Origin: an uncultured Gammaproteobacteria bacterium
Lineage (GTDB): Bacteria; Pseudomonadota; Gammaproteobacteria; UBA4575
Direction: 5' to 3'
NCBI GenBank assembly: GCA_937922735.1
Contig: CALAJL010000126.1
Coordinates: 1-33,311 of the forward strand
DNA: 33,311 nucleotides
Each line of letters opens with the position of its first letter. Positions within the stretch are counted from its first letter, which is position 1. The notes beneath the pieces are model-generated. The model was not told the origin of the DNA, ran no database searches, and was given only the letters and a program-made list of their open reading frames with translations. Below are positions 11,172 through 15,241 of the stretch, one piece after another. A program made the position numbers and the translations under genes.

Positions 11172-11642
11172 TTAGGTATCTGATGGATAGTGCTTGCGAA
11201 AGATATGTTTCACTGCATTGTATTTATGATCTCTATATTGCGCTATTTTTTCCCAATGATTAGCTTCATAGAATTTATACGCATGAGCATTTTGCTCAAA
11301 ACTTTCTAGCGCGATGACGCGATAATTTTCAAACAAGAGATCCTCACAGTATTGAAGTAATTTTGTTCCATAGCCTTTCCGGTGATGATCTACATCTATC
11401 ACCATGAAATCAATTACATTATCAATAACTATGGAAAAACCAAGCGTGTCATGATCATGGTGTAATGACCATGCATGATTAATATGTTCCTTTAAGTATG
11501 TATCTAGGTGATTGCTGGTCAGATATTGTTCTACAGTATCGTCGCCGAGAAAATATCGGTAACTTTGATCTATAGTTTTTTTTGCAATCTGCTGTATTTT
11601 CTTCAGATCAGATATGTCTGTGTGATTGAATGTTGTATTCAC
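11172..11642 (-). CDS. GNAT-family N-acetyltransferase
   Basis: A 156-residue protein with the GNAT fold: a variable N-terminal helix region, a central strand FMVIDVDHHRKGYGTKLLQYC containing the acetyl-CoA pyrophosphate-binding motif (R/Q-x-x-G-x-G/A, here RKGYGT), and a C-terminal AYKFYEANHWEKI motif common in the family. It should transfer an acetyl group from acetyl-CoA to an amine, but the substrate is unknown. The start codon is GTG (complement of 11640-11642). It lies convergent to the peptide transporter operon, with 30 bases between stops, and is transcribed separately from its neighbours. It has the same AT-rich composition as the rest of the window. Confidence 0.85.
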   Translation of the reverse strand: MNTTFNHTDISDLKKIQQIAKKTIDQSYRYFLGDDTVEQYLTSNHLDTYLKEHINHAWSLHHDHDTLGFSIVIDNVIDFMVIDVDHHRKGYGTKLLQYCEDLLFENYRVIALESFEQNAHAYKFYEANHWEKIAQYRDHKYNAVKHIFRKHYPSDT

Positions 11643-11953: not shown

Positions 11954-12856
11954 CTATTCTACAAAAAATTCTAGTTTGATACCCGCAACATCAATGATGT
12001 CATGATCTTCGATAGGTTCTGCTTTTGCAGCAATTACTTCGCCGTTAAGTTTGGACGGGGTGTTTGGGTTTCCATCAATATGCATAATAAAGTAACCAGA
12101 ATTACGCTTTGTAATGCCAACAACCGCAATATCGGGTTTGCCTACAGTTGTTAAAGATTTATCTAAAGCGATCTCTTTGCCACTATTTTTCCCATTCAAT
12201 ATTTGAATGCGTCCAATATTAGATGCAGGGGGTTGTGAATTAATTTGAATGTCTTCTGGCTCATCATTTCTAGATGAAGGTTCAAGTTTATGGTTATTTG
12301 AAATTTCTTCTTCAAATTTTTTATTAGCATCATCAGAGTGATCTTGCTCATCAATATTGTTGCTATTATCTTTATTAGCTATCTCAGACGAATTCTCATG
12401 TTCATCCTCTGATTCAGTCGTTTCACACATCTCATTTTCAAGTTCATTAATCTGGTCTTCTAATGACTGTACATCTTGTTCTTCTTCTAGCGCATTTTTT
12501 CTATTTGAAGTGGCAGTTAGAATTAGTGTCTTTTCGAATTCACTATTCGCAGAACTTGAGGCCAGATGATTTACATACTTGATGCGATGGTTGCCGATAT
12601 CGATGATATCCCCATCTTTAAGTGCATGTTTTTTGACAATTTTAGAATTTACGAATGTGCCATTAGTACTATTTAGATCTTCTAAGAAACAGTCATCAAG
12701 TACAAAGTTAATTTGCGAGTGATAACCACTAATGGCTAAGTTATCTAAGCAAAGGTCGTTATCAGTGCGTCTTCCAATAGTGATGGTTTCCTTATCAATA
12801 GGAACTTCATCAACAACTTCTTTGTCTAGGCTGATAATTAATTTTGCTGTGCTCAT
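11954..12856 (-). CDS. FHA-domain protein with an acidic linker and a second, degenerate FHA-like domain
   Basis: A 300-residue cytoplasmic protein without signal peptide or membrane segment. Residues 1-95 form a forkhead-associated domain with the phosphothreonine-binding hallmarks GRR (28-30), SGYHSQ (43-48, Ser and His) and LNSTNGT (61-67). Residues about 110-210 are very rich in Glu, Asp, Asn and Ser, an unstructured acidic linker. Residues about 213-300 look like a second FHA fold that has lost the GR and SxxH residues but keeps the hydrophobic strand pattern and a late LNG/DVAGIKLEF end. It follows the PP2C gene by 10 bases and should read phosphothreonines written by the kinase encoded at the head of the operon. 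Its partner is unknown. Confidence 0.82.
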   Translation of the reverse strand: MSTAKLIISLDKEVVDEVPIDKETITIGRRTDNDLCLDNLAISGYHSQINFVLDDCFLEDLNSTNGTFVNSKIVKKHALKDGDIIDIGNHRIKYVNHLASSSANSEFEKTLILTATSNRKNALEEEQDVQSLEDQINELENEMCETTESEDEHENSSEIANKDNSNNIDEQDHSDDANKKFEEEISNNHKLEPSSRNDEPEDIQINSQPPASNIGRIQILNGKNSGKEIALDKSLTTVGKPDIAVVGITKRNSGYFIMHIDGNPNTPSKLNGEVIAAKAEPIEDHDIIDVAGIKLEFFVE

Positions 12857-12866
12857 AACTCATAGT

Positions 12867-13694
12867 CTATTTTGATAATAATTTACCGAATTTTGACTTC
12901 CAATTTTTTTTGCCAGGGAATTCTTTGTTTGGCTGGGCTAACAATACTGAAACGTTATCTCGGCCGCCATTTTCATTTGCTAAGGCGATAAGTTTGTCAG
13001 CTAGCTGGTCTAGATTGTCTCTAAAGGCGGTTACTGTTGCATGAATTTCCTGATCATCGACCATATCTGTCAGACCATCGGAACACAGGAGATAGATATC
13101 ACCTGGCATCGCGAGATCCTCTTTTATATCTACCGCAATGCTTCCCTCAATGCCAAGAGCACGCGTAACCAGGTTTTTGTTTAATGAAGTATTCGCTTCT
13201 TCTTGTGTATAGAAGCCTCGATCAACAAGCTCTTGAAGTAAAGTGTGATCAACTGTGATTTGTTGAAGTTTACCATCTCGATAGCGATACATTCTTGAGT
13301 CACCAACATGGGCAATAGTGATTTGGTTATCATAAAAAATACCCATCACTAGAGTGGTTCCCATGCCACGATATTGAGCATCGTTGCTGCTCATGGAAAA
13401 AATTGCTTCGTTGGCTTTTACGACGGAATTTCTGGCGGCTAAACTTTCTCTTGTGTAGCCTGTTTTTTCATCTATTTCACCCGGCACAAGATCTGGAATA
13501 AATGCACGAAGTTCTTCGAGAATAGTGTTCACCGCAACTTCGCTGGCTACTTCACCACTTTTATATCCACCCATACCGTCCGCTAACACGACTAAACCGA
13601 TTTCTTGATCTTCACCGATCTTATCTTCGTTATTGGTGCGCACGAGTCCAACATTGGATCGCCCAGCGATGTCTAAAATGCCTTTTAGGTTCAT
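12867..13694 (-). CDS. PP2C-family serine/threonine phosphatase
   Basis: A 275-residue soluble protein with the full set of PPM/PP2C metal-binding motifs in order: RTNNEDK at 19-25, DGMGG at 39-43, GDSR at 131-134, CSDGLTD at 204-210 and GGRDNVS at 243-249. It should remove phosphate from Ser/Thr residues using Mn2+ or Mg2+, and so reverse the action of the neighbouring kinase. Its start overlaps the kinase stop by four bases, and the FHA gene begins 10 bases after its own stop, so all three are translated together. The C-terminus carries a short lysine-rich tail (KKNWKSKFGKLLSK). The length is close to the bacterial Stp/PrpC norm. Confidence 0.93.
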   Translation of the reverse strand: MNLKGILDIAGRSNVGLVRTNNEDKIGEDQEIGLVVLADGMGGYKSGEVASEVAVNTILEELRAFIPDLVPGEIDEKTGYTRESLAARNSVVKANEAIFSMSSNDAQYRGMGTTLVMGIFYDNQITIAHVGDSRMYRYRDGKLQQITVDHTLLQELVDRGFYTQEEANTSLNKNLVTRALGIEGSIAVDIKEDLAMPGDIYLLCSDGLTDMVDDQEIHATVTAFRDNLDQLADKLIALANENGGRDNVSVLLAQPNKEFPGKKNWKSKFGKLLSK

Positions 13695-15241
13695 ATGCTA
13701 TCTAACATCATTTCGCATTCGCGTAACTTGTTGGCCATGCTTGCTGCAGACTGGAAACGTTTGTCTGGTTCTTTTTCGAGCGCTTTGTTTACAGTCCAGG
13801 CTATACATGAGGGTGTGCTTGGGTTGATCTCTGATATGTCTTTATGTTGTTCTTGTGTAATTGATCGCATTAGCTCAGCCATCGTTTTAGGTCGAAATGG
13901 CGGTGAGCCGGTTAATAGATGGTATAGGGTTACTCCTAATGAATATAGGTCTGAACGCGCATCCAATCTTTCACCTGCTAGTTGTTCTGGTGACATATAT
14001 AATGGTGTACCTAAAATTGATCCCGCACGTGTTCTTGTTGAATCAGGGATTCTCGCAATACCAAAGTCTGTAAGCTTAACGTAATCATCGCCTTGGTTAT
14101 AGATGATATTCGCAGGTTTTATGTCTCTGTGGATAAGATCTTGTTTATGTGAGTAGGATAAGGCATCTGCACACTGGGCAATGATTTTTAATACAGTTTT
14201 GGGGTGTAGAAGGCGGTCAGCTCGAGCATAGTTTCGTAGATTAATGCCATCTACATACTCCATTGCTATATAGGCAAAACCGTCTGTTTCACCGCTATCG
14301 AGTATTTTTACAATATTGGGATGACTTAAATTTCCTGCAGTTTCGATTTCTCTATGAAAGCGAAACTTATATTCATCTAGCTGATTGGCTTCAAGTTCTG
14401 ATGATAAATTGAGCACTTTTATGGCAATGATATTCTCGGTGACAATATCCTTACCTTTGAATACAGCTCCTGTGGTGCCTTGGCCGAGTAGATTTTTGAC
14501 TTTGTAACGACTGCCGTAAAGTGTTGGGTAGTCGCTTAATTCTTCACCAAGAATAGTTTCTGCTTCTGGTTCTGTATCGGGCGCCAGAATAATGGTCTTT
14601 CCAGATGCAACAGCTTTTTCAATAATAGTGGAGTGTTTATCAATAATCTGTTCAGACTCAGGTTCTTCAGATGTTGATGTAGATGATGGTATAGATAAGT
14701 TTATTTGTTTATTTTCGTCATCAACTAAGTATGTCTGGTCTTCAATTGGCGTATCTTCAGAAAGGACGGGCTCACTGCTAAAAGATGCAATGCGTTGCTG
14801 AACATCTTTAAAACTTGGCTCAAAACTTGAAATAAATTCAAATGCCTTTTTAGCGTTTTCAGGATCACCTTTTATTTGGAAATCAATAGCTAAATTATAG
14901 ATTAGATTTGCTGTGTCATGATTATGAGGACATTGTTTGAATTTTTCGAGTGCAACATTGAGTTGTCCTAAGCCTTGAAGTTTTAAGCCTACATTACGAT
15001 GGTTATTTCGTGATTCAAATTGCTTCACAGCATCTGTAGTTGAAGTTTTAATGCTATTGCTAGTGGGCGGCACCATAAATGCCCATGTGAGTGAGACTAA
15101 TGAAATTAAAGTGATGACGGTTACTTGCGTTACTAATATGGGTGGTTGTATTGCCCAAAGTAATGCCGCAATAGCAACCGAAATCAGTAGGCTCAATCTA
15201 AACCACTTGGTATTTGATTTATTTTCTTTAAGCATATTCAT
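13691..15241 (-). CDS. Membrane-anchored Ser/Thr protein kinase (Hanks type) with helical-repeat region
   Basis: A 516-residue protein. Residues 15-58 contain two closely spaced transmembrane helices. About 80-155 is a helical region with tetratricopeptide-like character (GLKLQGLGQLNVALEKFK and a second unit GDPENAKKAF), and 155-235 is an acidic linker. The catalytic domain is at 244-510, with the glycine loop GQGTTGAV (253-260), invariant Lys275 in AIKV, catalytic HRDIKPAN (371-378), DFG (392-394), an activation loop with several Ser/Thr, and GTPLYMSPEQ. All catalytic residues are present, so activity is expected. The kinase is at the C-terminus, the reverse of PknB-type receptors. It opens the kinase-phosphatase-FHA operon. 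A 14-base palindrome lies just upstream of the start. Confidence 0.93.
   Translation of the reverse strand: MNMLKENKSNTKWFRLSLLISVAIAALLWAIQPPILVTQVTVITLISLVSLTWAFMVPPTSNSIKTSTTDAVKQFESRNNHRNVGLKLQGLGQLNVALEKFKQCPHNHDTANLIYNLAIDFQIKGDPENAKKAFEFISSFEPSFKDVQQRIASFSSEPVLSEDTPIEDQTYLVDDENKQINLSIPSSTSTSEEPESEQIIDKHSTIIEKAVASGKTIILAPDTEPEAETILGEELSDYPTLYGSRYKVKNLLGQGTTGAVFKGKDIVTENIIAIKVLNLSSELEANQLDEYKFRFHREIETAGNLSHPNIVKILDSGETDGFAYIAMEYVDGINLRNYARADRLLHPKTVLKIIAQCADALSYSHKQDLIHRDIKPANIIYNQGDDYVKLTDFGIARIPDSTRTRAGSILGTPLYMSPEQLAGERLDARSDLYSLGVTLYHLLTGSPPFRPKTMAELMRSITQEQHKDISEINPSTPSCIAWTVNKALEKEPDKRFQSAASMANKLRECEMMLDSI

Follow-up and report, generated by a model that had tools for sequence, protein, structure and literature searches.

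A gammaproteobacterial kinase, PP2C phosphatase and two-FHA adaptor operon with a sensor-less relative of CHASE2 kinases and a candidate phosphothreonine switch

Gene trios of Proteobacteria encoding a Ser/Thr kinase, a PP2C phosphatase and an FHA protein are usually read as regulators of the type VI secretion system (T6SS). The described system of this composition is the T6SS threonine phosphorylation pathway PpkA-PppA-Fha, formed by a kinase, a phosphatase and an FHA protein (PubMed Central, PMC5995506). CHASE2 Ser/Thr kinases with an extra domain on the N-terminal side are known in cyanobacteria (PMC2176072), and in the PknG-OdhI pair the kinase recruits its FHA substrate through a flexible segment that it autophosphorylates, a TPR domain being proposed to couple the signal to this substrate (PMC8546545). 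CHASE2 kinases and neighbourhoods of Ser/Thr protein kinase, phosphatase and FHA genes are already in print. Here we describe a kinase-PP2C-FHA operon located in a stretch of 33,311 nucleotides (contig CALAJL010000126.1 of assembly GCA_937922735.1, called the window below) from an uncultured bacterium of the Gammaproteobacteria. In the open-licence PMC literature that we searched, neither this trio nor the motif shared by its kinase and its FHA protein is described, and no homologues with a known target were found.

The three genes are consecutive open reading frames (ORFs) of one strand, in the order kinase-PP2C-FHA (Table 1), and both the ORFs and their domain matches agree with the trio given in a preliminary description of this DNA. 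That description also had all junctions overlapping: the kinase and PP2C genes do overlap, by 4 bp, while the PP2C and FHA genes lie 10 bp apart. With moderate confidence, we read the operon as encoding a T6SS-independent, reversible phosphorylation relay, which would descend from a class-wide module made of a CHASE2-TPR kinase, a PP2C phosphatase and a two-FHA adaptor, would have lost its extracytoplasmic CHASE2 sensor in the window family, and would operate through a switch involving the kinase linker and threonine T110 of the adaptor.

Table 1. Position of the operon genes and of their domains and candidate sites in the window
Feature	Coordinates	Strand	Content or basis
Ser/Thr protein kinase, 516 amino acids (aa)	13691..15241	-	two transmembrane (TM) helices, TPR-like segment, linker, C-terminal Hanks-type catalytic domain
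Two predicted membrane helices of the kinase (aa 19-37, 40-58)	15068..15187	-	hydropathy peaks and alignment
TPR-like segment (about aa 80-155), conserved LQG-x-GQL-xx-A motif	14777..15004	-	alignment
Kinase linker with candidate phosphothreonines T216, T229	14507..14776	-	motif comparison of homologous linkers
Kinase catalytic domain (aa 246-499)	13745..14506	-	PF00069, E 1.7e-54 (Pfam)
PP2C phosphatase, 275 aa, Stp1/IreP family	12867..13694	-	NF033484; alignment
Two-FHA adaptor, 300 aa	11954..12856	-	PF00498; alignment with homologues
N-terminal FHA domain, intact phosphothreonine-binding residues	12593..12784	-	PF00498
T110 codon, in FEKTLILT, candidate phosphoacceptor	12527..12529	-	invariant in homologues
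Degenerate C-terminal FHA-like domain (aa 215-300)	11957..12214	-	hhalign to the N-terminal FHA profile

The catalytic domain stands at the C-terminal end of the kinase behind two N-terminal hydropathy peaks, as first noted, and its residues K275, HRD 371-373, N378 and DFG 392-394 are invariant in 13 aligned sequences. The TPR-like region held up in part. It aligns to homologues of which some match TPR models, and its LQG-x-GQL-xx-A motif is conserved by alignment in the CHASE2-kinase family, but the window kinase itself has no Pfam TPR match at E 1e-3; the TPR-link model that matches it was built from sequences including its own. By sequence, PknB is the nearest solved relative of the kinase. 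The layout does differ from that of PknB receptors by its C-terminal catalytic domain. It is not peculiar to the operon, however, being that of CHASE2-type Ser/Thr kinases minus CHASE2.

This origin was traced by comparison with relatives. The kinase search of 55 relatives gave matches in 35; beyond the genus, the best were reading frames of roughly 450 to 890 amino acids, mostly above 800. Six long kinases among them (811-890 amino acids) have a CHASE2 domain (PF05226) at their N-terminus; the window kinase aligns with the CHASE2 kinases of this length across the TM-TPR-kinase part, and only the CHASE2 part is missing. Its membrane helices align with those located C-terminal to CHASE2 in the long homologues. 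Pfam detected no CHASE2 in the window kinase, and none was found in the 19 genomes of the window family, in a search whose controls matched as expected. Because the alignment begins at the post-CHASE2 helices and none of the 19 family genomes has CHASE2, the seemingly reversed layout is that of a CHASE2 kinase without its sensor. The window kinase is thus a derived, sensor-less relative that falls outside the CHASE2 kinases as strictly defined.

The form found across the class is a kinase of about 800-1000 amino acids in which a CHASE2 sensor is followed by membrane helices, TPR and kinase domain. Among 45 kinases adjoining a PP2C gene, 34 show a match to CHASE2 (at locus L108 it lies in an ORF of its own), 2 match at the membrane end only and 9 have none, one of these nine being cut by a contig end. 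We built a tree from 43 trio kinases and two other kinases of the window genome, leaving out loci L048 and L054, whose kinase domains were taken as too short (for L048 on the basis of a wrong match); its bootstrap is unsettled, and a long stem (1.43) leads to the window genus. On this tree the CHASE2-less label needs four changes, at least two of which are forced by well-supported branches, so that CHASE2 was probably lost more than once, the direction of change being taken as loss rather than gain. Since the helices, TPR segment, linker and catalytic domain were kept, the membrane helices, the TPR segment or a partner protein would have to take in the signal; the sensor-less form raises the question of how a receptor kinase stays useful after loss of its receptor domain. 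Another form of the kinase is seen at locus L053 (7928-8848, genome G046), where the trio includes a soluble kinase of 306 amino acids with no membrane helix, TPR or CHASE2.

The adaptor begins with a well-defined FHA domain (E 3.7e-18, residues 25-88), in which G28 and R29, S43, H46, N65 and G66 are invariant in 10 aligned sequences; these correspond to the GR, SxxH and NG residues named for the FHA pocket (PMC1262709). The acidic linker that had been reported is directly visible behind it. The degenerate second FHA fold is supported by an alignment of the profile of the C-terminal domain to that of the N-terminal FHA (hhalign probability 90.6%, E 1.3e-6, 72 columns). This second domain lacks the pocket arginine and serine, as judged by eye. 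Its conservation in full-length adaptor homologues makes a function in structure or in target binding probable, and it counts as a regular trait of the adaptor family.

Shortly C-terminal of the first FHA domain, an acidic run leads into the motif [E/D/A]-x-T-phi-phi-phi, where phi is a hydrophobic residue. Its threonine, T110 in the window, is a threonine in all 50 aligned homologues and a serine in none. Around it stand glutamate at -2 (46/50), lysine or arginine at -1 (47/50) and aspartate or glutamate at -4 (46/50). Of the 146 columns of the linker, just two reach a conservation of 90%, namely this threonine and the acidic residue at -2. A similar motif recurs in the kinase linker, usually as EETVMLGG and then GTLVL, just ahead of the catalytic domain. 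The window linker has T216 in GKTIIL (14594-14596) and T229 in AETILG (14555-14557), the latter assigned by eye to a looser motif that misses the third hydrophobic residue. Set against shuffled sequences, in figures that are not to be read as probabilities, the adaptor motif occurs in 49 of 50 proteins versus a mean of 0.28 (maximum 2, 500 shuffles), the fiftieth failing solely through its letter at -2; at least one T-phi-phi-phi occurs in 28 of 43 kinase linkers versus a mean of 2.0 (maximum 7), and two occur in 20 of 43 versus 0.03 (maximum 1). Loci L053 and L054, with linkers of less than 40 residues, were left out of the linker comparison.

From these conserved motifs we infer phosphorylation, docking, a switch and its direction as follows. 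The kinase would autophosphorylate threonines of its linker, and these would serve as docking sites for the adaptor through its intact N-terminal FHA domain. The kinase would then phosphorylate the adaptor at T110, close behind this domain, and phosphorylated T110 would fill the FHA pocket of the adaptor, either that of its own molecule (in cis) or that of a second copy (in trans), altering the binding partners of the adaptor. Removal of the phosphates by the PP2C phosphatase would reset it. More tentatively, and with less confidence than in the relay as a whole, we propose that kinase linker and adaptor tail may compete for one FHA pocket, which would make the arrangement a class-wide, self-contained recruit-phosphorylate-lock switch outside Actinobacteria, run without CHASE2 in the window family.

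Several points count against this proposal. The candidate threonine lies C-terminal to the FHA domain, unlike in GarA and OdhI, whose switch threonine lies N-terminal to it. No T-phi-phi-phi was found in 15 of the 43 kinase linkers, including that of genome G005 of the window family and those of all three f66 kinases. The homologues share ancestry, the sets of 50 and 43 including the window and its relatives, and the shuffle figures overstate their independence. AlphaFold models of the adaptor and the kinase, each built from an input of three sequences, were of too low quality for use, with a mean pLDDT (predicted local distance difference test) of 38.0 and 37.8, respectively. The conserved hydrophobic stretch, moreover, could be a beta strand or a docking segment instead of a phosphosite. 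Developed into an explanation, this last point gives EKT-phi-phi-phi a role as structural strand or docking peptide, which either completes the fold of the first FHA domain or binds to the kinase, the adaptor itself reading the phosphothreonines of other proteins. The three conserved hydrophobic residues that follow the threonine would fit a beta strand, and T110 lies about 20 residues past the Pfam FHA boundary; the threonine, however, is the sole invariant linker residue, preceded by acidic residues, and its motif recurs in the kinase linker, and we hold this explanation to be unlikely. We give somewhat less credit still to an adaptor acting in trans, where the FHA domain of one copy binds phosphorylated T110 of another, so that chains or clusters form at the membrane kinase and the switch works by assembly instead of by an intramolecular lock. 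One intact pocket, a conserved threonine nearby and similar motifs in the kinase linker would permit such multivalent binding, but the short spacer between FHA domain and T110 fits cis and trans alike. The linker-T110 switch designates one precise and cheaply testable site, T110 of the adaptor together with the linker threonines of the kinase.

The trio is present in all four members of the genus (identity 74-80% for the kinase, 93-95% for the PP2C and 66-78% for the FHA protein), flanked by a methyltransferase-mltD block on one side and an oligopeptide-type ABC transporter on the other. In genus g3, G005 and G015 have it in the same position, the G015 copy being truncated by the end of its contig. 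The association of the three genes is therefore more than chance, as this recurrence shows. The PP2C search of the whole family matched 9 of 19 genomes, in 8 of which the match includes a stretch with 64% identity or more, and the related-locus search of genome contigs returned only two genus mates. Genome G010, a single contig of completeness 100, has no match to the trio phosphatase and no class III cyclase match.

For the class, the FHA-protein profile was run over 369 genomes, 180 of which matched at E 1e-12, other FHA proteins being included in this number. We chose 40 class loci, not at random, from the best two-FHA profile matches, and examined them in six frames with 13 earlier loci and the window; G039 (L052), in which the kinase gene is separated from a distant PP2C gene, was not included. 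The full trio, in kinase-PP2C-FHA order and on one strand, was found in 44 of these 54 loci (32/40 class loci, 11/13 earlier loci and the window). Six class loci have PP2C and FHA genes with no adjoining kinase, and two have no PP2C. At L143 (5005-8054) and L146 (1031-6872), adaptor-like FHA proteins lie near a different kinase and have no PP2C.

In 15 of the 40 class loci (L108-L147), a CHASE2 protein without kinase domain lies directly beside the trio (e.g. L109 6990-9236, L126 2145-4391), and all 10 of these neighbours that were tested carry a class III cyclase domain. The output of the module could thus pass through cyclic AMP, the kinase and the adjoining CHASE2-adenylate/guanylate cyclase reading one signal. 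We regard this as improbable: no such cyclase adjoins the window trio, the single class III cyclase match of the window genome is on another contig and the family is devoid of CHASE2 proteins; moreover, adjacency is not function.

The absence of secretion genes noted for the window was extended to its genome (G000, 92% complete), in which searches for the T6SS markers TssK, TssB and TssF found none. Neither TssB nor TssF was found in the three genus mates, including G001 (99%) and G002 (100%, one contig), and TssB was absent from G000-G003, G005 and G015. Over the 15 genomes searched, TssB was detected in 1 and TssF in 2; TssB was detected in 4 of the 40 genomes of the class loci. Among the 369 class genomes, 69 have TssB, which corresponds to 9 of 74 module carriers and 60 of 295 others (odds ratio 0.54, Fisher p 0.13), a carrier being a genome with an FHA-adaptor match at a chosen line of 1e-40, so that this match stands in for the module. 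The NCBIfam library contains a T6SS FHA model; it was not among the four adaptor matches at E <= 1e-3. A role as T6SS regulator was rejected, with none of the three markers in the window genome and no positive T6SS link across the class, and the view of the set as stand-alone phospho-signalling proteins stands. That the trio is a relic or satellite of PpkA-PppA-Fha is very improbable: the same three enzyme and reader types do share one operon, but the secretion system is missing, by TssK, TssB and TssF, from the window genome and, by TssB and TssF, from its genus mates, carriers are not enriched in TssB, and the kinase is of CHASE2-kinase descent.

The phosphatase scores 245.9 bits with NCBIfam NF033484 (Stp1/IreP), above the cut-off of 230, and has the PP2C metal-binding motifs, as judged by eye. 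For the kinase, a PASTA-type receptor kinase (PknB/Stk1) was considered and discarded: NF033483 gave 287.2 of 450 bits, and there is no Pfam PASTA match.

Upstream, mltD is conserved in the genus, as is the downstream oligopeptide-type ABC transporter, which g3 shares; G005 has no mltD between methyltransferase and kinase. Outside the family the surroundings are mutS/htpG-like in G029 and G046 and ruvA-like in G053. Since the neighbours differ outside the family and the mltD position is not kept in G005, we deduced no target from the neighbourhood. Downstream of the FHA gene, on the same strand, a GNAT acetyltransferase gene (window 11172-11642) has its counterpart at this position in G002 and is not matched in G001 or G003. 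Rfam gave no match in the window, and a promoter and terminator scan gave site counts below those of shuffles.

Other kinase and FHA genes of the window genome were also recorded. On contig C78 (L055, 3824-9996), a HEAT-repeat kinase of 793 amino acids, two T2SSE/PilT-like ATPases, an aspartyl protease and a cyclase-FHA fusion form one run; five relatives likewise have a kinase and a cyclase match at a distance of about 3-4 kb. Contig C97 (L056, 2110-3426) carries a kinase with a C-terminal cyclic-nucleotide-binding domain adjoining a Mur ligase gene, and the best FHA match of the genome is an AAA ATPase-FHA fusion on contig C68 (L058, 4158-5447).

Compared with PpkA-PppA-Fha, the window module has the same kinase, phosphatase and FHA protein composition and differs by the lack of a T6SS, another kinase descent and no class-wide T6SS association; it belongs to a separate, widespread module carried mostly by T6SS-free genomes. 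With the Stp1/IreP phosphatases paired with Stk1/PknB kinases it shares a PP2C passing the NF033484 cut-off, whereas its kinase fails the PASTA-kinase model and has no PASTA domain in Pfam. Like CHASE2 Ser/Thr kinases, the window kinase has a C-terminal kinase domain and an N-terminal membrane part, and it has the TM-TPR-linker-kinase order of the gammaproteobacterial members, but CHASE2 itself is missing in the window kinase and in the whole family. The nearest solved relatives by sequence are found in the PknB/PknG-GarA/OdhI systems of Actinobacteria, where an FHA protein is likewise the substrate of a Ser/Thr kinase; for the adaptor FHA domain they are GarA/Rv1827 and other mycobacterial FHA domains. 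The adaptor misses the equivalog cut-offs of this type (OdhI 47.7 of 200 bits, FhaB 58.8 of 125 bits). PknG combines a TPR segment with an autophosphorylated flexible segment (PMC8546545), to which the TPR-like segment and linker of the window kinase may be compared. The adaptor differs from GarA and OdhI by its second, degenerate FHA domain and by the C-terminal place of its candidate threonine, and the window has all three partners in one operon, with membrane helices and TPR preceding the kinase domain. The parts of the module, as far as sequence motifs go, would permit PknG/PknB-GarA/OdhI logic; if the proposed switch is true, a GarA/OdhI-like logic would exist in Gammaproteobacteria and would offer a handle on the output of the module.

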